A DNA stretch of 64,000 nucleotides from Ignavibacteriota bacterium. Its GTDB lineage: Bacteria > Bacteroidota > Ignavibacteria > SZUA-365. How positions within the stretch are numbered: position 1 is the first letter of the stretch; each line of letters starts with the position of its first letter. Both the position numbers and the translations under genes were made by a program. The stretch covers positions 1 to 64,000 of the forward strand of contig JACRFB010000072.1 in assembly GCA_016218045.1 (NCBI GenBank). Direction: 5' to 3'. This document shows, one piece after another, positions 52,226 to 61,990 of this stretch. The notes under the pieces are model-generated. The model was not told the DNA's origin and searched no databases. It was given only the letters and a program-made list of their open reading frames with translations.

Positions 52226-53224
52226 CTATGCGATGGTGAACGGGGGGGAGGTCGTGTCGCGGTGCATGGTGAAACGACGGAACGCGAACAGGGCGGCGAC
52301 CAACACGACGAGTCCGGCTCCCGCCAGATATGCCGTGTCCTGTGCCGCGCCCGCCGCTGCAACTTCCTGTGACGCCGCCTCGTAGCCGAGAAAATACACG
52401 CTGAGCACCGAGATCGTGTTGTTCGTCGCATGTGCTATCATCCCGTAATACAGGGAATTGCCGCGCCAGACGACGTAGCCGAGGAGCAGACCGACGCTCG
52501 TGAGCGCCACAAACTGCGTCGGGTACAGATGGAACATCGCGAAGATCGCCGCGTTGAGGAGTATGGCCCATCGCGCCCGCATGCTCTTTTCGAAGGCACG
52601 CTGTACGACTCCCCGGAACACGAGTTCCTCGCACAGGGCGGGTGTGAACGCGACCACGATCCATACGAAGCCGAGTTCCCAGGGCGACTGCATCAGGAGC
52701 AGACTTTTATATGCGCCCGCAATCAGCTTCTCGATGGCGTCGTACAACTTCTCCAAGGACGGAGTGAGAATGTATGTGCGGAGTATGTGTTCCTGCGCGG
52801 TCATGTACCCCTGCAGTACGAACTGCAACGCCACAACGGCGAGAATCACCGCCAGCGCCGGACGCCACGAGACGGGATGCAGGCGCAGGCCTGCGCGCAC
52901 ATTCCACCGGAAGACCCGCGTGAAGACGAACACGGGGCCGGCCAGAAAGACCACCTGCGCGAACACCGTGGCGATGCGCATGGCGTTGACATTGTCGGGT
53001 GTGATCGATGTCCCGATCAGGAGAACGGTGATGACGCTGCCGATGAGCTGATACGAAATAAAGATCGCGCCCAGAAACAGAATGCCCGCAAGCCACGGCG
53101 CAATCGGGAGCGGTGTGTCTGAACGGGGTTCTTCGGTACGCGGGAGCGTGTCGGAGGAGGCGGTGCCGGGCATTGCCGCGGATGCGCCTTCATCCATGTC
53201 GTCGATATGCTCCGAAGGAATCAT
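52226..53224 (-). CDS. CPBP-family intramembrane glutamic endopeptidase
   Basis: 332 residues, about eight transmembrane segments after a 40-residue acidic N-terminus. Catalytic motifs: E199-E200-x3-R204 (CEELVFRG), H232 in FHLYPTQ, and H265/N269 in HATNNT. It is a Rce1-like membrane protease; its substrate is unknown. The start overlaps the preceding stop as ATGA. Confidence 0.9.
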   Translation of the reverse strand: MIPSEHIDDMDEGASAAMPGTASSDTLPRTEEPRSDTPLPIAPWLAGILFLGAIFISYQLIGSVITVLLIGTSITPDNVNAMRIATVFAQVVFLAGPVFVFTRVFRWNVRAGLRLHPVSWRPALAVILAVVALQFVLQGYMTAQEHILRTYILTPSLEKLYDAIEKLIAGAYKSLLLMQSPWELGFVWIVVAFTPALCEELVFRGVVQRAFEKSMRARWAILLNAAIFAMFHLYPTQFVALTSVGLLLGYVVWRGNSLYYGMIAHATNNTISVLSVYFLGYEAASQEVAAAGAAQDTAYLAGAGLVVLVAALFAFRRFTMHRDTTSPPFTIA

Positions 53225-54177
53225 TGCGCCGCCCTCCCCGCCGCGAGACGTATCATCGCGGCAAGCAACGGGATCATGAGCTCGTGATGTCCGGTGAACG
53301 TGTACCCGCGCCCTCCGCCCTGTGTGGGCCGCGACACAACGTTCACATTGGGCCGGTAATGCTGTATCATGTCAAAATTCGCGGCAATGAAGTTGTGGGC
53401 CGGAAAACCGAGATTGCGGACCACCGTGAGCGCCTTGAGAAACACCTCGGGAAGCAGCACGGCCGATCCGATGTTCAACACGACCGCGCCCTCGCGCAGA
53501 TCCTTAATGGCATGCGCAAGCACACGGAAATCGCGGAACGACATTTCGCCCGTCGCGCCACCGTCCATACCCGGCTGCTGATGTACGATATCGGTGCCGA
53601 TCGCGGCATGAACCGATACGGGAAGGTCCAGGCGCACACCCGCCGCAAGGATAGAGTTGTCGATGTGCGGCGCGCCCTTCTCGTGAAGGGCCGCGCCCAG
53701 GGCCTCGCCATAACCCATCGCCGTTCCGGCCGCGGCTGCATTGAGTGTGCCGTTGATGAAGTCGCCCGTCTCGCGCCACATACCGAAGCTTCCGTCGCGC
53801 AGATTCGAGGCCACATCCTCGGAGGTTGCACCGTATAATGCTGATTCGGAATCGTGGATTGCCGCGGCGCTGTTCATGGCAACGGCGGTGACGAAACCCC
53901 GTTCCATCAAGTCGATAAGCACAGGCGCCAGACCCACCTTCACGACGTGCGCGCCCATCATCCAAATCACGGGCGCACCCGCGCGACGCGCGTTGGCGAC
54001 GGACTCGGCAAGAATCCGAAGATCCCCGGCCTTCAGGATGCGCGGCAGGTTGTCCACAAACTCCTCGAACGAGGCGCCACCGCCGGTTGCGCGCGCAAGC
54101 GACTCCCGCGTGACCTTGTTGCTCCGTTCGGCAACCGAACGCGTCTGTATGCCCGTAAAATCAAGCTGCGGAAACAT
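53221..54177 (-). CDS. Unrecognised conserved protein, possibly Rossmann-like
   Basis: 318 residues, no signal or membrane segment. Noticeable motifs are WMMGAHVVKVGLAPVL near 72, AMNSAAAIHDSE near 98, GSFGMWRETGDFINGTL near 128, and IGTDIVHQQPGMDGGATGE near 193. Later come NIGSAVLLPEVFLKAL and TQGGGRGYTFTGHHEL. The Gly/His-rich loops suggest an enzyme. A deoxyhypusine-synthase-like fold occurred to me but I cannot support it. It is linked to CPBP by ATGA. Confidence 0.7.
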   Translation of the reverse strand: MFPQLDFTGIQTRSVAERSNKVTRESLARATGGGASFEEFVDNLPRILKAGDLRILAESVANARRAGAPVIWMMGAHVVKVGLAPVLIDLMERGFVTAVAMNSAAAIHDSESALYGATSEDVASNLRDGSFGMWRETGDFINGTLNAAAAGTAMGYGEALGAALHEKGAPHIDNSILAAGVRLDLPVSVHAAIGTDIVHQQPGMDGGATGEMSFRDFRVLAHAIKDLREGAVVLNIGSAVLLPEVFLKALTVVRNLGFPAHNFIAANFDMIQHYRPNVNVVSRPTQGGGRGYTFTGHHELMIPLLAAMIRLAAGRAAQ

Positions 54178-54241
54178 GCGCCCCGCCCAGTGTATGGAGA
54201 ATCATACGGGCAAATTGCGCATGCACCGGTTGGAAAGCAAC

Positions 54242-54272
54242 CGCGCCGTTCCCCGCATGGAGGAACGGCGCG
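54242..54272 (-). terminator. Probable terminator after DUF3108 gene
   Basis: Perfect 11-bp stem CGCGCCGTTCC/GGAACGGCGCG with a 9-base loop, 42 bases beyond the stop of the DUF3108 gene. The minus-strand tail is moderately T-rich (GTTGCTTTCC). A second, bulged stem (54282-54310) lies between the stop and this one. Confidence 0.6.
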
Positions 54273-54313
54273 ACACCGTCGGCGTCCGCACCGGCCCGGG
54301 TGCGGGACGCGCG

Positions 54314-55147
54314 TTATTTCACCTTTGATGGAATCGGACCTTTGACTCCTTTATACGACAGCAGCTCGGAGGTGATCGAACCGATCGGGATTTCCGCCTC
54401 GACCTGCACCGGGATTTTCCGGTCGTCGTCCGTAACCCACACGATGATGCGTCCCGACGACTTGAACAGGCCGCCTTCTTTCATGATCGGCTCGAGCAGG
54501 ATGCAGCGAAACTCACCCGCCTCAACCGAGACGGTCTGCTTCCCGAGATATTTAACTGTAAGACCGTAGGTGCTGTCCTTGTAGAAATTGCGGAGCTGCA
54601 CCTTCTGCCCTGGACGGAAGCCCGAATAGTCGTACGTCCGCATGAAATAAAACGCCGAGAGTATGTCCTGCGTGAACGGCTCGACGGGGAATTCGCCGTT
54701 CGGGGTCACGGCCTTCATGCGCCAATAGTCGAAGCCCGCATGATAGTCGCGTTTGTACCCCCCTTCGCGGATCTGCTGAATGAACTTCCATGAATAGAGG
54801 CCGTCGACATCGATGTGGGATTCGTAGCGATCGCGCACCTTGTAGAATGCGTCGAAGAAGGGTTTCGATGTGACGGTGAACTCCACCGCATAACACGGGC
54901 GACCACCCATTGTGCTCATGCGCGGAATCGACATCTTCGCCGTTCCGGCAGTGATAAATCCGTAATTCACGTCGTACACCAATTCCTCGCCCACGGCAAA
55001 GGCGTTGTGTTCGATCTTACGATAGGGAATTTTTGAACCCGGGGATTCCGGTTCGCCTCCCTCGCCCAGTTTCTGCGCGGCGGCAGGGATAAGGACACCG
55101 AGTCCTAAAAGAAGGACGAGTGTTGTGTGCAATGCGCGTGTAAACAT
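54314..55147 (-). CDS. Exported DUF3108 protein
   Basis: 277 residues. A signal peptide spans about 1-24 (AAAQ). The mature protein has the DUF3108 pattern: FAVGEELVYDVNYGFITAGTA near 47, SKPFFDAFYKVRDRYES near 90, and a late SSGRIIVWVTDDDRKIPVQVEAEIPIGSITSEL. Bacteroidota/Proteobacteria members are periplasmic with unclear function. ATG 55147 has AGAGG about 10 bases upstream. It appears to start its own unit. Confidence 0.88.
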   Translation of the reverse strand: MFTRALHTTLVLLLGLGVLIPAAAQKLGEGGEPESPGSKIPYRKIEHNAFAVGEELVYDVNYGFITAGTAKMSIPRMSTMGGRPCYAVEFTVTSKPFFDAFYKVRDRYESHIDVDGLYSWKFIQQIREGGYKRDYHAGFDYWRMKAVTPNGEFPVEPFTQDILSAFYFMRTYDYSGFRPGQKVQLRNFYKDSTYGLTVKYLGKQTVSVEAGEFRCILLEPIMKEGGLFKSSGRIIVWVTDDDRKIPVQVEAEIPIGSITSELLSYKGVKGPIPSKVK

Positions 55148-55217
55148 GGTAATTCTGCCTCTTCTGCCCGAAATGAGTGCGTTCATTCCAATACTACGCC
55201 ATTTCCATGCCAAAAGT

Positions 55218-56246
55218 TCACCCAAGCAGTGACACCGCCGCCTCGATAGCCCGGTCCACGGTGATACGCGCCATGACATCGTGCCGCCCGCAGGATTCAG
55301 CCCTGCAGGCCGCGCACCCGCGCTCCATGTCGGGTGTCAGTACGCGAGCGCGTGTCCCCAACGGGCCCCATCTCCGCGGGTTGCAGACACGCTCGAAGGG
55401 ATAGAGTCCGAGTACCGGCGTGCCGACCGCGGCGGCAAGATGCAGCGGACCGGTGGAATTGGCGGCGAATAAGGACGCCCGCGCATACACTGCCGCCAAT
55501 TCTGGGAGTGTAAGTTGCCGCTGGAAGATGCGGGCATTCCCCGCAGCAGCGGCTGCGCGTGTCATGAGCTGTTTTTCCGACTCGACGCCGCTGACGAGCA
55601 CGACGAGCCGTGGATCCTGTGCTGAGAGCTCGCGAGCCAGAAGCCCGAAGTTTTCGGCGTTCCAGTCCTTGGCCGAACCTCCGCTGCCGGGGTGTACAAC
55701 AACGAATCGGGTTTCAGTGCCTATGCCGTGTTCCTCCAGAAACACCTCGGCCGACGCGGACGCGTCCGGAGGCACCACGAGCTTCGGATCAGGGAGCGGC
55801 CGCACCGGTATGCCGAGCCGCTCCGCTAAAGCGAGCGTGTAATCTCGTTCGTGCCGGGTCGCTTTTTTCCTGTGCTCCCTCACCTTGTGTGTAAACAGCG
55901 GCGAGTACCAACGGTAAGCCGTGCCCACACGGATACGAACGTGCGCACGCGCCACGGCGAAGGCGAGCTTCGGGCGGGGATAGGCGAATAAGGCGATGTC
56001 CGGCTGCAGAGTGCCGAGCACGTCACGAAAATTGCCGTCCGCGGGATCGAGGTCTCGTCCGCCGATCGTTATGGTGCCATCGACGAAGGGCGACATACGC
56101 GCCAGGGCCTCGAGCGGACGCTGGACACAGTACGTGACACGTGCCGCGGGAACCGCGCGTTTTACCGCCTCCGCAAGGGGCAGGCTCAGAATCAGGTCGC
56201 CGATGCGGTCGGTGCGAAAGACGAGTACATGCGGCTCGCTGTTCAC
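55218..56246 (-). CDS. Glycosyltransferase family 9 (heptosyltransferase-like)
   Basis: 342 residues from a GTG start. The N-terminal Rossmann motif VLVFRTDRIGDLILSLPLA is present, and the C-terminal domain has VVHPGSGGSAKDWNAENF near 183 and NSTGPLHLAAAVGTPVLGLY near 280. It would add heptose or a related sugar to lipopolysaccharide core. The acceptor cannot be inferred. It starts 18 bases after the TPR anchor gene. Confidence 0.92.
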   Translation of the reverse strand: MNSEPHVLVFRTDRIGDLILSLPLAEAVKRAVPAARVTYCVQRPLEALARMSPFVDGTITIGGRDLDPADGNFRDVLGTLQPDIALFAYPRPKLAFAVARAHVRIRVGTAYRWYSPLFTHKVREHRKKATRHERDYTLALAERLGIPVRPLPDPKLVVPPDASASAEVFLEEHGIGTETRFVVVHPGSGGSAKDWNAENFGLLARELSAQDPRLVVLVSGVESEKQLMTRAAAAAGNARIFQRQLTLPELAAVYARASLFAANSTGPLHLAAAVGTPVLGLYPFERVCNPRRWGPLGTRARVLTPDMERGCAACRAESCGRHDVMARITVDRAIEAAVSLLG

Positions 56247-56264
56247 CGTGGGAGGTCCGCAGGC

Positions 56265-56867
56265 TCAGAGCTGCTTCGCGCTTTCCTCCGCCCGCTTGGC
56301 ATCTTCGGACCCCGGAGCAATTTTTCTCAGCTTGTCCCACGCGGCGCGAGCTTTGACCTTGTCACCCATCGTCGCGTGAATGGCGCCGATATTGTACAGC
56401 GCCTTTGTGTTCGAGGGTTCCTTCTGGAGGATTTTTTCGGTGATCGCGAACGCCTTCGGGTGCTGGCCCAGATCGTAATATGCCACCGCCAGATCGAACA
56501 TAGCGTCGGTGTTCCCCGGCATGGCCTTGAGATAACGCTCGAAATACTTCACCGCTTCCTCGATGCGATGCGAGAAGTAGAGCATCTGCGCAAGTGTGAG
56601 TACGTCGGTGGTGTCCTTCTCCGGGGCCGCATCCACGCGGGCCTGCATCTGGGCGAGGCGTTCCATGACATCGGCGCGGACGTTGCTTTTGTCGGGCCCG
56701 CCGGGCGCCGCCTGTCCCTGCTCCGTCTCCGATACATTCGGGTGCCCCGGCGGCAATTGCGATGCGAGTTCGTCGGCGGAAGGTTCCGAATCACCCAATA
56801 AAAACACGATGGCCACTCCCGCCACAATAACCGCGGCGATCAGCAGGTAGATTTTCTTGATGTCCAT
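56265..56867 (-). CDS. Membrane-anchored TPR protein
   Basis: 200 residues. One N-terminal transmembrane helix (about 4-22, IYLLIAAVIVAGVAIVFLL) and a Pro/Ser-rich linker are followed by tandem tetratricopeptide repeats (about 88-190, with LAVAYYDLGQHPKAF and YNIGAIHATMGDKVKARAAW). It resembles envelope assembly or NrfG/CcmH-like scaffold proteins. AAAGGAG lies directly upstream of ATG 56867. It is divergent from dnaX. Confidence 0.88.
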   Translation of the reverse strand: MDIKKIYLLIAAVIVAGVAIVFLLGDSEPSADELASQLPPGHPNVSETEQGQAAPGGPDKSNVRADVMERLAQMQARVDAAPEKDTTDVLTLAQMLYFSHRIEEAVKYFERYLKAMPGNTDAMFDLAVAYYDLGQHPKAFAITEKILQKEPSNTKALYNIGAIHATMGDKVKARAAWDKLRKIAPGSEDAKRAEESAKQL

Positions 56868-56991
56868 TTCCAACTCCTTTGAGAATAATTGGGAAATATA
56901 CGAATCCCCGGCGGTTCTGGGAACTCGGACCACCCATTTGATCCCCACATCCCCCGTATCTATCTTGCGGTTTGTTCTTAATCGGAAGTCC

Positions 56992-58491
56992 ATGTCGTTT
57001 CTCGTTACCGCACGTAAATACCGACCATCGTCGTTCAATCAGATCATCGCGCAGGAGCATGTGGTCCAGCCGCTCCTGAATTCGATCCGAATGAACCGAA
57101 TCGCACATGCCTACCTGTTCTGCGGTCCGCGAGGTGTTGGGAAAACGACAATGGCCCGCATTTTTGCCAAGGCGCTCAACTGCCCGAATGCGCAGGACGG
57201 CGAACCGTGCAACACCTGCGATACCTGCGTGGAAATCGCTGAAGGTCGCGACATCGATGTGCAGGAGATCGATGGAGCGTCAAACACGGGTGTGGACCAC
57301 GCCCGTGTGCTGCGCGAATCGGTGCGTTTTATGCCCGCGCGCGACAAGTACAAACTCTACGTGATCGACGAAGTGCACATGTTGACCGACAACGCATTCA
57401 ACGCGTTGCTGAAAACGCTCGAGGAACCGCCGAAACACGCGCTGTTCATCTTCGCGACCACGGAACCGCACAATCTCCTGCCCACAGTGCTTTCACGCTG
57501 CCAGCGCTACGATTTCAAGCGTATCAGCGTCGAAAACATCGTGCGGCAGCTCGCCATGATCTGTTCGCAGGAAGGGATAACGGCCGCCGAGGGAGCGCTC
57601 TACATCATCGCAAAAAAGGGCGACGGCTCCATGCGTGATGCGGAAAGCATCTTCGACCAGGTTGTTGCCTACGGCGGATCGAACCTCACCGCGGAAATGG
57701 TGCGCACCGTCCTGCACACCGTCGATGAGGATGTGTATTTCCATGTGACCGATCTGATCAGCTCGCAAGACACGGCGGGCGGCTTCGCGCTCGTCGAAGA
57801 CGTTGTCGGGCACGGTCACGACATCCAGGATTTTCTCGTGGGCCTGGAAGAACATTTCCGCAACCTGCTTGTCGTGCGGTCGACGGGAGACACGCGCCTG
57901 ATCGAAGCGTCGGACGAATACCGAAAACGGTATGCCGCAACCGCGGAACGTTTCCCGGAGGGCGATCTGCTGCGACTGCTCAAGCTGACTGCCGAAGCGA
58001 TGCAGGCGCTGCGTTTCAGTCCTCAACCCCGAGTGAAGTTCGAAATTGCGCTCATCACCATGATTAAGATGGATTCCACCATCCTGATCAGTTCGCTGCT
58101 GCCGCCCTCCGCACAGGGCGGCAAACCGGAAAAGCCGGCCTCGGCTGTATCGCGTCCCGCCCCTGCCGCGGCACCATCGCAAAGCGTCGGTCGGACCTCC
58201 GCCGCCTCCGCACCCGCGGCACCCGCGCCGGCAGCACCGCAGCACCACAATGCCGCTCCCGCGCGTTCGGCCCAGGGCGACGACGCCTTGCGCGCCCTGC
58301 GCGAGAAGGAGCAGCGGTACGCAGAACTTCTCAAGGGACCATCCTCACCAGTACGCGACGCACACCCGGCTCCTCCGCCGCCGACGCCGCAACACACTCT
58401 CGACGCACCGCAGCCGGCCGCCCCCGTGCACCCGCTCGTGCAAACGCTGATCGATTCGCTCGGCGCCGTCATCATTCCCGATGCCCGCTGA
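56992..58491 (+). CDS. dnaX: DNA polymerase III subunit gamma/tau
   Basis: 499 residues. AAA+ clamp-loader motifs: Walker A GPRGVGKT at 45-52, zinc Cys C64, C73, C76, C79, Walker B D126-E127, and TTEPHNLLPTVLSRCQRYDF for sensor 1. The tail (about 360-499) is Ala/Pro-rich and low-complexity, the flexible region seen in tau. It starts at ATG 56992 with GGAAG upstream. Confidence 0.95.
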   Translation: MSFLVTARKYRPSSFNQIIAQEHVVQPLLNSIRMNRIAHAYLFCGPRGVGKTTMARIFAKALNCPNAQDGEPCNTCDTCVEIAEGRDIDVQEIDGASNTGVDHARVLRESVRFMPARDKYKLYVIDEVHMLTDNAFNALLKTLEEPPKHALFIFATTEPHNLLPTVLSRCQRYDFKRISVENIVRQLAMICSQEGITAAEGALYIIAKKGDGSMRDAESIFDQVVAYGGSNLTAEMVRTVLHTVDEDVYFHVTDLISSQDTAGGFALVEDVVGHGHDIQDFLVGLEEHFRNLLVVRSTGDTRLIEASDEYRKRYAATAERFPEGDLLRLLKLTAEAMQALRFSPQPRVKFEIALITMIKMDSTILISSLLPPSAQGGKPEKPASAVSRPAPAAAPSQSVGRTSAASAPAAPAPAAPQHHNAAPARSAQGDDALRALREKEQRYAELLKGPSSPVRDAHPAPPPPTPQHTLDAPQPAAPVHPLVQTLIDSLGAVIIPDAR

Positions 58492-58563: not shown

Positions 58564-61131
58564 ATGTTCGTGACACAAATTACCGGCGCAGTTTCACAAC
58601 TGCTTCCGAATGATCAATCGCTATTCCAATGCGTGATCGACCTCACAGTACCGCTGGAATTTCTCACGGCGATTCAGAGCGGCACGCTCGTCGCCGTTGA
58701 AAACGTTTACTCGGCGCCGAAAAAACAGCGCTACTCCATTTTGCAGATGATCGACGCCTTTCCGGTGGAGGAGGCGAAAAAACCGAAAGGCGGACTGACG
58801 CTTCGATGTACCGCCATGCCGCTTGGTCTCGAGCTTCTCGATCAGGGCGCAAAAAAAGCTCCGATCATCGAGGCCGCCGACACCTTCCCCACCGTGGGCG
58901 CCAACGCCGTCGTGCTCGACGATCAGACCACCACGAGCGTCATTCACCAGATCGCACCTGAAAGCCGCTCCGAAGAAAACGGCTCGCGCATCGACATAGG
59001 CACCTATGCCACGAATCCCACCGTGAAAGTCGGGCTCGACATGTCGACACTAGTGCGCGGCAATATCGCGGTGATCAGCGCCCGCCCGCGCGCGCGCACC
59101 ACGATCACCACATCCCTGCTCAGCGCGCTGCTCAGCAAGGGCACGACACCGATTCACGTCGTGTACTGCGATGTGAACAATCAGGGCACCATGTCGCTGC
59201 TCCCGCTGCTTAACGGAATGGACCAGTCGTCGATCCTCTGCCTGAACGACAAGTTTGTGCCGCAGAGCGTGTACCTGTCGATGAAGAATCCGTCCGACCG
59301 TTCCGCGTACAAACGCGCCACGCTCGACTATCTCGACATGATGGTCCTTCCCTCCATGATCGAATCGCGCCGGCAGGATCTCAGCTTTGCGGTTTCGACG
59401 CTCTTCCGCGCCAACAAGATCGCGATCTACCGCCCGAACGAACAGACCATCGGTCAGTTCCTCAACGATATCCGCATCGACATTCTCGACGGCGTCGAGT
59501 CCGACGTGGAATCCTTCATCTCGGGTGTGATCAACGGCATCGTCGACTCCTATGGCAACGAACGCTTCGGCGAAAAGAACATGCGCGACATCCTCGAGAT
59601 GATCGACGAGTTCAGTGCCGACACAAAGAGCCACGGAATCCGCCGCACACTCTATGATCTGCGCGCGGAGATTCAGGCGGCGAACGAGACCTATTCGAAG
59701 GATGTGCCGTCGAACGCCCGGAAGTCCATCCAGGACGTCGTCTCCGAACTCAACGACGACTCCCGTTCGAGCCTGCTCGTCGTGCAGGGGCAGAAGACCA
59801 CCGACATCCTGCGGTTTATCGGCACGCTTGTGCAGACGCTCGTGGACGAACGTCTCAAGCGACTGAAAATCCGCGTCCCCGTGCTCTTCATCTTCAACAA
59901 TGTCGACGAGTATGTGCCGCGCAACGGCGGCTCCTACCGCGAGTCGGGTGCGGATCGTTTTGTGGACCTTATGCAGGCATTGCTCGCAAACGGGCGTCGG
60001 CACGGACTCGGGTTCTGCCTCTCCCTCGAGAGTGCGGGATCGATCGACCGCGCGCTTGCGAGAAAGATTCATTCCTATTTTATCGGCCCCATCACGTTCA
60101 CCGACGAGCCGCCTCTGGTCGCGCAGCTTCTGAACATGTCGACGGAATTGATACGCCCGGCTGTTGCGTACGAAGACGGGCACTTCCTCTATGCCAGTTC
60201 CGACTCGCCCTATCACCGCCGCGTCCCGCTGCCGGTCACCACGGTCAAAAACACCGTGACCCTGCACACGTATCTCGACTCGGTGCATGACGAGGCGGAG
60301 CGGCGCAAGCAGGAATACTATGCACAGGAAGAGGAACGCCAGCGCCGCCAGGCCCAGGAACGCGAGGAACGCCGCAAGCGCCAGGAGGAAGAAGCTGCTC
60401 GTAAGGCCCAGGCCGCTGCCGCACAGGCGCTGCTCGGCGAAACGGAAGCTCCCGCAGCCGAAGGCGGCGAAACACCTGCGCGCAAGGAACGCGACGACGA
60501 CCGACGCGGCGACAAGAGAAACCGCGACAAACGCGGGAAAGACGGCGGACGGCCGCGCGGTCAGGAAACACCCGAGACTCCCGCCGAAACTGAAACATCC
60601 CCTGAAGCCGCAGCTCCCGCTGAAGCCGAATCGAAGGCCGATCGCGACCGCGGGGGACGGAACCGCGGCAAGGGCGGCAAGGACAACAGACGGAAGGACG
60701 ACCGACGCGAGAAGGATGACCGACGCGAGAAGGACGACCGACGCGAGAAGGATGACCGCCGTGAGAAGGATGACCGCCATGAGAAGGATGACCGCCGTGA
60801 GAAGGCACCTGCCGAAACTCCCGCCGCAAAACATGCCGAGCCCTCCGCGACGAAACACACCGACACGACCGAGGACCGCATGGGTGAGCTGACGATTCAG
60901 ACCACGCGCTACGGCGGCTACGATATGGACGTCTCGGACGACCGCTCCCGCGGAGTCGAGGTAACCGCAGGCGTGCCGGATGCGGAATCCGCAACGACCG
61001 ACATTCCGGCAGCACCCGACGGATCCGCCCCCGAGGCGGGCCAGAAGGAACATGGCTCGGGCAAGAAACGCGGATCGCGCGGCAGTCGCGGCGGCCGCCG
61101 ACGCTCGGGCGGAAAGAAACCGCAGCAATAA
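58564..61131 (+). CDS. HerA-like protein with degenerate P-loop and long charged tail
   Basis: 855 residues. Residues about 1-100 form a HAS-barrel-like domain. A RecA-type fold follows (about 165-560). The place of the usual GxxGxGK[ST] is taken by VISARPRARTTITT near 170-183, so the P-loop Lys and glycines are absent, yet the following strand and CDVNNQG are preserved. The Walker B-like strand is VLFIFNNVDEYVP near 440-452. Residues about 575-855 are disordered and charged (E/R/K/D/P/A), with six KDDRRE repeats and an Arg/Gly-rich end. It lies 72 bases after dnaX. A structural or regulatory role in DNA transactions is inference. Confidence 0.72.
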   Translation: MFVTQITGAVSQLLPNDQSLFQCVIDLTVPLEFLTAIQSGTLVAVENVYSAPKKQRYSILQMIDAFPVEEAKKPKGGLTLRCTAMPLGLELLDQGAKKAPIIEAADTFPTVGANAVVLDDQTTTSVIHQIAPESRSEENGSRIDIGTYATNPTVKVGLDMSTLVRGNIAVISARPRARTTITTSLLSALLSKGTTPIHVVYCDVNNQGTMSLLPLLNGMDQSSILCLNDKFVPQSVYLSMKNPSDRSAYKRATLDYLDMMVLPSMIESRRQDLSFAVSTLFRANKIAIYRPNEQTIGQFLNDIRIDILDGVESDVESFISGVINGIVDSYGNERFGEKNMRDILEMIDEFSADTKSHGIRRTLYDLRAEIQAANETYSKDVPSNARKSIQDVVSELNDDSRSSLLVVQGQKTTDILRFIGTLVQTLVDERLKRLKIRVPVLFIFNNVDEYVPRNGGSYRESGADRFVDLMQALLANGRRHGLGFCLSLESAGSIDRALARKIHSYFIGPITFTDEPPLVAQLLNMSTELIRPAVAYEDGHFLYASSDSPYHRRVPLPVTTVKNTVTLHTYLDSVHDEAERRKQEYYAQEEERQRRQAQEREERRKRQEEEAARKAQAAAAQALLGETEAPAAEGGETPARKERDDDRRGDKRNRDKRGKDGGRPRGQETPETPAETETSPEAAAPAEAESKADRDRGGRNRGKGGKDNRRKDDRREKDDRREKDDRREKDDRREKDDRHEKDDRREKAPAETPAAKHAEPSATKHTDTTEDRMGELTIQTTRYGGYDMDVSDDRSRGVEVTAGVPDAESATTDIPAAPDGSAPEAGQKEHGSGKKRGSRGSRGGRRRSGGKKPQQ
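60694..60801 (+). repeat. Six in-frame 18-bp repeats encoding KDDRRE
   Basis: Six consecutive 18-base units, each KDDRRE (one reads KDDRHE), lie in the tail of the HerA-like gene. Units vary at synonymous third positions, which suggests expansion followed by drift. Confidence 0.92.
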
Positions 61132-61219: not shown

Positions 61220-61990
61220 ATGAAACTCGTCTCGTGGAACGTCAACGGCATCCGCGCCGTGGTCAAAAAAAACGTGTTCTTTGAATACCTCGAGGAACAG
61301 ACGCCCGACGTGCTCTGCCTGCAGGAAACCAAGGCGCACGAAGACCAGCTCGACGAAACCCTCATCACCCCGCCGGGGTACTACACGTACTGGCACGCCG
61401 GCGAAAAGCGCGGGTACAGCGGCGTCGCAACCTTCACCAAAAAGAAGCCACAGCGCGTGCTGCGCGGCACCGAGATCCTGCCGCGCGATACCGAGGGGCG
61501 CATACTCGCGACGGACTATCCGGACTTCCGGCTTTACAACATCTATTTTCCAAACGGAGGACGGGGCGCCGAACGCCTCCGTTACAAGCTCGAATTCTAC
61601 GACGAGATTCTCGAGCACTTCGAACGCGAACGCGCCGAGGGGAGGCCGCTGGTAATCTGCGGCGACGTGAATACCGCGCATCGCGAAATCGATCTCAAGA
61701 ATCCGAAGGAAAACGAGAAGACGTCCGGATTCATGCCCATAGAGCGCGCCTGGCTCGACCGTCTCTTTTCGCTCGGCTACATCGACACGTTCCGGCATTT
61801 CCACCCCGACGAGGTGGACCAGTATTCCTGGTGGGACATGCGCACACGCGCGCGTGAACGCAACGCGGGCTGGCGCATCGATTACTTCATCACCACGCCC
61901 GATCTCGAGAAAAAACTCAAGAGCGCCTCGATCGAAGCCAATGTCGAGGGCTCCGACCACGCGCCCGTCGTGCTCGTCGTCAAAGCGTGA
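61220..61990 (+). CDS. xth: Exodeoxyribonuclease III
   Basis: 256 residues, standard length. Motifs of the AP endonuclease family: LVSWNVNGIRA, LCLQETKAHE (Glu), ICGDVNTAHREID (Asp-Asn), AGWRIDYFI and the final GSDHAPVVL. It repairs abasic sites and trims 3-prime ends. It converges with the ribbon-helix-helix gene; the two stops abut at 61990/61991. Confidence 0.96.
   Translation: MKLVSWNVNGIRAVVKKNVFFEYLEEQTPDVLCLQETKAHEDQLDETLITPPGYYTYWHAGEKRGYSGVATFTKKKPQRVLRGTEILPRDTEGRILATDYPDFRLYNIYFPNGGRGAERLRYKLEFYDEILEHFERERAEGRPLVICGDVNTAHREIDLKNPKENEKTSGFMPIERAWLDRLFSLGYIDTFRHFHPDEVDQYSWWDMRTRARERNAGWRIDYFITTPDLEKKLKSASIEANVEGSDHAPVVLVVKA

Follow-up and report, generated by a model that had tools for sequence, protein, structure and literature searches.

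Can a HerA-type DNA translocase lose its catalytic site and still be maintained by selection? This question is raised by a gene, from here called pseudo-HerA, in a 64,000 nt stretch of DNA from an Ignavibacteriota bacterium (Bacteroidota; Ignavibacteria; SZUA-365), consisting of positions 1 to 64,000 of contig JACRFB010000072.1 in assembly GCA_016218045.1 (from here: the window). Its open reading frame (ORF) is uninterrupted and lies between dnaX and an xth-type gene (Table 1). We report that its product is a conserved derivative of HerA in which the catalytic site has been replaced, and that it is under strong purifying selection.

The Walker A motif GxxGxGK[ST] is absent from pseudo-HerA; SA[RK]PRART is found instead in 14/14 homologues, with R or K as the third residue of the octapeptide (R174). 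The alignment to intact HerA is ungapped (GNAAVISARPRARTT / GKHAAILGNTGSGKSCT; DVNNA / DTNNE; PVLFIFNNVDEYV / PVVLILEEAHHYI; GRRHGLGF / GRKFGLSL, with pseudo-HerA given first and PVLFIFNNVDEYV covering residues 439-451). Because there is no gap through the site, the Walker glycines correspond to S172, P175 and A177, the Lys to R178 and the Ser/Thr to T179; the position of the octapeptide was therefore kept, while its three glycines were changed to S, P and A. By the same alignment, the Walker B acidic pair, EE in the HerA of this class, corresponds to N445-N446 and the sensor-1 Gln to E489, both replacements occurring in 14/14 homologues. The arginine finger is present, with G477-R478 invariant in 14/14 and aligned to the GRK of HerA. 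D203 and R478 are the only two ATPase signatures retained and every other one is replaced. The position of D203 matches D220 of Deinococcus radiodurans HerA, the ASCE acid (PMC9960219), and in the HerA core the sensor-1 Gln sits at the end of strand 4 with the arginine finger just upstream of this strand (PMC10853773).

These replacements are fixed. Invariant positions make up 172 of the 579 core columns and include S172, A173, P175, R176, A177, R178, T179, D203, N445, N446, R478 and E489; in the P-loop, 7 of 8 columns are invariant (binomial P 0.0012 against the overall fraction, 14 homologues). The ratio of nonsynonymous to synonymous substitution rates (dN/dS) in the core was 0.054-0.082 for seven pairs, with close pairs at about 0.06, and reached 0.167 in the pair of greatest divergence among those tested; all values are approximate, as dS was near or above 1. 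GxxxxGK[ST] is retained in 15/15 of the best intact relatives inspected. As a normal P-loop is present in the nearest intact HerA proteins that were found, its loss in pseudo-HerA is derived. In the tree, the family is one clade with a stem of 5.45 changes per column, compared to at most 0.64 inside the clade, a pattern of a burst of change followed by constraint; because of this long stem the tree cannot place the family inside HerA. Judged from these residues, the pseudo-ATPase status of the family is well supported. The original prediction, made from the letters of the window, had read VISARPRARTT in place of the P-loop and Asn-Asn at the Walker B position and had proposed a HAS-barrel and RecA-like strands. 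The first is found at residues 170-180, the second proved invariant, no family homologue with an intact P-loop was found that would point to accidental damage, and the proposed fold agrees with the profile match and the models described below.

Two further observations concern this region. In the closest intact HerA relatives of the class (L102 and L103), strand 2 is followed by D-T-N-N-E, similar to D-V-N-N in pseudo-HerA and unlike the usual LDxHGEY, which may point to the source clade of pseudo-HerA. That the invariant R453 corresponds to Lys K363 in the DNA loop of Sulfolobus HerA is left as a guess, as this position varies among the intact HerA proteins of the class.

By sequence and predicted fold, the 855 amino acid (aa) protein is a HerA homologue. 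The PADLOC HerA profile PDLC01055 matches residues 75-542 (E 4.9e-14) and 12 of the 14 family members. In the reverse direction, a hidden Markov model (HMM) of the family finds intact same-class HerA ORFs at E 5.5e-11 and 1.6e-10, within a small group of ORFs pre-picked as HerA relatives. A local hhalign comparison with class HerA placed second against 60 column shuffles; its score alone is therefore not proof, and significance comes from PADLOC and the family HMM. No credible match to pseudo-HerA was obtained in Pfam and NCBIfam, and no match in PHROGs, in IMG/VR or in a PDB sequence search with the family profile. The AlphaFold2 (AF2) model from 14 sequences (predicted local distance difference test, pLDDT, 68; predicted template modelling score, pTM, 0.63) has a beta-barrel at the N-terminus and a RecA-like core with a helical insertion. 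All of its top 50 Foldseek matches among PDB structures were of the HerA type (best E 8e-15). The VIA Z values were 14.1 for TdpA, 12-13.5 for HerA, 12.7 for the DndH C-domain and 12.2 for TrwB. A second AF2 model, with a 50%-identical member as the lead sequence, was weaker (pLDDT 66, pTM 0.51) and had Sulfolobus HerA 4d2i as its first Foldseek match (E 3e-8). Both models place the start of the helix that follows strand 1 at the Pro in octapeptide position 4, at moderate pLDDT. In the DUF domain of EccC5 from type VII secretion, a helix likewise extends into the P-loop and nucleotide is not bound (PMC11154593); the resemblance of the modelled pseudo-HerA helix to it is suggestive only.

Known HerA proteins, such as those of S. 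solfataricus (4d2i), D. radiodurans (7wrx) and T. kodakarensis (9x1m), are DNA translocases of archaea and bacteria. They have in common with pseudo-HerA the barrel, RecA-like core, helical insertion and colinear sequence homology, together with the GRK/GRR arginine motif and the Asp after strand 2. Pseudo-HerA differs in its long charged tail, its fixed dnaX linkage and its occurrence in an order without NurA. The DUF and D2/D3 domains of EccC/EssC in type VII secretion are FtsK-clade pseudo-ATPases with degenerate Walker A and B motifs, as in pseudo-HerA; in them the helix is extended into the P-loop and the domains are kept for structural reasons (PMC11154593). However, these domains come in addition to an active ATPase domain of the same protein, which is part of a secretion machine in the membrane, whereas in pseudo-HerA the only ATPase-fold domain is dead. 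Besides NurA-type HerA, the best structural matches were HerA proteins of defence systems (SIR2-HerA, DUF4297-HerA, TdpAB and the DndH C-domain), and the best sequence profile is a PADLOC HerA model. Defence HerA structures were determined in the presence of ATP analogues or a nuclease partner, whereas the pseudo-HerA locus has a fixed neighbourhood in the core genome and lacks the defence partner genes.

The core is followed, after residue 579, by a 276 aa tail with 25% K+R, 24% D+E and 5% VILMFWYC, which begins with a predicted long helix in the second AF2 model. Family tails comprise about 220-320 residues (2-8% VILMFWYC, 36-55% charged), and tail dN/dS was 0.18-0.35 where computable. Tail length probably varies by repeat slippage, as other members carry other charged repeats than (DDRREK)n. 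The short motif LxIEEFDPNAGK occurs in most same-family members, as do clusters of the type TTRxRRKRG. The former is kept in the otherwise fast-evolving disordered tails of L003-L011 (e.g. L008 and L011), the site reading LTIQTTRYGGYD or LTIETTRTGGYD in the window and L002; it is a candidate partner-binding motif.

A search of 60 relatives yielded 13 homologues with 50-66% identity, and pseudo-HerA is present in 14/16 genomes of one order, all metagenome-assembled genomes (MAGs) of Ignavibacteria/Bacteroidota. The two order genomes without it (88% and 74% complete) also gave no dnaX match, so the region is probably missing from these assemblies. In about 280 further class genomes and 394 phylum genomes no homologue was detected, the only match being at chance level (E 0.09). 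A scan of 84,980 named species returned 11 loci, all in Ignavibacteria/Bacteroidota/Chlorobiota MAGs and apparently the same genomes. In 15 other class genomes, the genes that follow dnaX show no homology to pseudo-HerA (best E 0.11, a DnaX). NurA was absent from all 16 order genomes (control positive). Among the part of the candidates that was scored, a strong DUF87/HerA match occurred within the order only in G002 and G012. No active HerA was seen in pseudo-HerA's own genome, the DUF87 matches there being FtsK and a PilT-like ATPase.

The order dnaX, pseudo-HerA, xth on one strand was found in every locus long enough to show all three. From dnaX to pseudo-HerA the spacing is 48-78 nt in all loci measured (72 nt in the window), and no strong promoter or terminator was seen between them in a weak consensus scan. 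In most same-family loci the distance from pseudo-HerA to xth is -4 to 27 nt, while it is 88 nt in the window and 198 nt in L015; in a second family (f3) a gene with a carboxymuconolactone-decarboxylase (CMD) domain intervenes (GTG start, 219 aa; L021 6091-6750, L025 9001-9660). The genes upstream of dnaX in the window are shared by the f3 genomes but not by the other same-family genomes, which have different genes there, and the dnaX linkage has thus outlived rearrangement. The upstream block of the window (52226-56900; CAAX-protease-like, DUF3108, glycosyltransferase 9-like and TPR genes) is kept in f3 and does not adjoin dnaX in other same-family genomes. The clamp-loader subunit delta gene holA and ybaB are located elsewhere in the genome, and a replacement of either by pseudo-HerA was rejected for that reason.

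Table 1. Features of the pseudo-HerA locus (positions in the window; residues of pseudo-HerA)
Feature	Position	Strand	Remarks
pseudo-HerA gene	58564..61131	+	ATG start, 855 aa; order-specific family; 13 homologues in relatives; PADLOC HerA match
dnaX, conserved neighbour directly upstream, P-loop intact	56983..58491	+	
xth-type exonuclease III family gene, conserved neighbour downstream	61220..61990	+	
HAS-like N-terminal beta-barrel (predicted) and lead-in to RecA domain, residues 1-160	58564..59043	+	AF2 model; Foldseek/VIA vs HerA
Replaced Walker A octapeptide SARPRART, residues 172-179 (S172-T179)	59077..59100	+	HerA has GxxGxGK[ST]
D203, kept Asp after strand 2	59170..59172	+	intact HerA: LDxHGEY or DTNNE
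Helical insertion in RecA core, residues 234-400	59263..59763	+	model secondary structure; resembles HerA helix bundle (PMC9960219)
Replaced Walker B PVLFIFNNVDEY, residues 439-450	59878..59913	+	intact HerA: PILLVFEEAHNY
N445-N446 within replaced Walker B	59896..59901	+	NN invariant 14/14
GRRHG, kept arginine-finger motif, residues 477-481	59992..60006	+	HerA: GRKYG/GRKFG; invariant 14/14
E489 in place of sensor-1 Gln (HerA: SQRP)	60028..60030	+	invariant 14/14
Charged disordered tail, residues 580-855	60301..61128	+	long EERRKRQEEER-type helix, basic clusters, basic C-terminus
18-bp tandem array, 6.3 copies, encodes (DDRREK)n in tail	60693..60805	+	92% match

Given the residues at its site, pseudo-HerA very likely does not hydrolyse ATP and therefore would not pump DNA; rather than a damaged gene, it probably represents a DNA-handling protein that is maintained without motor function. 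Of the explanations considered, we favour, at about an even chance, a dedicated HerA-derived pseudo-ATPase that is likely oligomeric and would take part in DNA replication or repair as a scaffold or tether, not as a motor. Such a protein would have kept the barrel, RecA-like core, helical insertion and inter-subunit arginine and lost ATP hydrolysis. The fold and the kept Arg suggest that it may assemble into a HerA-type oligomer via the retained interface, perhaps in the form of a ring on double-stranded DNA. Co-expression with DnaX would be expected; the protein may bind DNA near the clamp loader, a functional coupling to which is suggested by the gene order, and its charged tail could act as a multivalent binder recruiting nucleic acid or partner proteins. 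The original prediction had placed the gene after dnaX and before xth, with about 280 charged disordered residues in its product, and both the linkage and the charged tail turned out to be conserved. The non-translocase part of the role it proposed agrees with the residue chemistry, and the structural or regulatory part is suggested by fold and neighbourhood.

Several points weigh against the favoured explanation. Gene order is not interaction, both AF2 models are moderate and residues 500-568 are unreliable. Moreover, the Walker A mutant K154A of Sulfolobus HerA also loses binding of double-stranded DNA (PMC5715905), so a dead ring may not grip DNA in the way that an active one does. More specific, and in our view rather unlikely, is the idea of a HerA ring without motor function, specific to the order, as a core accessory of the replisome, a pump turned into a clamp-like or tethering component that would be co-expressed with DnaX.

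Alternatively, R178 and T179 could still bind ATP without hydrolysis, the binding setting the oligomeric state. The change from Lys to Arg is conservative, the Thr, D203 and R478 are kept, and RecA-fold proteins in which the Walker A Lys is mutated to Arg can still hold nucleotide. However, the three glycines are gone, the second being a Pro without a backbone NH, and Asn replaces each of the two Walker B acids; the helix begins at that Pro in both models, as in the nucleotide-incompetent EccC DUF domain (PMC11154593). We consider such a nucleotide switch improbable, and to the same degree a scaffold that organises RNA or the nucleoid outside replication, for which the dnaX linkage would mean shared transcription only. 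The R/G-rich basic C-terminus and the alternating charged tail would suit that scaffold, but the linkage survives while same-family genes upstream of dnaX differ.

Slightly less probable still is a passive platform for the neighbouring Xth nuclease, a counterpart of the HerA-nuclease pairs (NurA, SIR2, DUF4297) minus the pump. The titles of the structural matches show that HerA relatives usually partner nucleases, and xth is the next gene at the short distances given above in most same-family loci, but the CMD-domain gene intervenes in f3 and Xth-type enzymes act alone elsewhere. A damaged or decaying HerA gene, which the lost catalytic residues might suggest, is refuted by conservation and hardly deserves any weight, as the ORF is intact in all full-length homologues, the replacement residues are invariant and core dN/dS is about 0.06.

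In open-licence papers, neither a stand-alone HerA without catalytic residues nor a report of a pseudo-HerA family was found. If real, the family would mean that a HerA scaffold can be of use even when it does not turn over ATP. It would provide a natural experiment on what a RecA-fold ring keeps after loss of the motor, here the inter-subunit Arg and the Asp after strand 2, and the linkage to dnaX makes the connection to replication directly testable.
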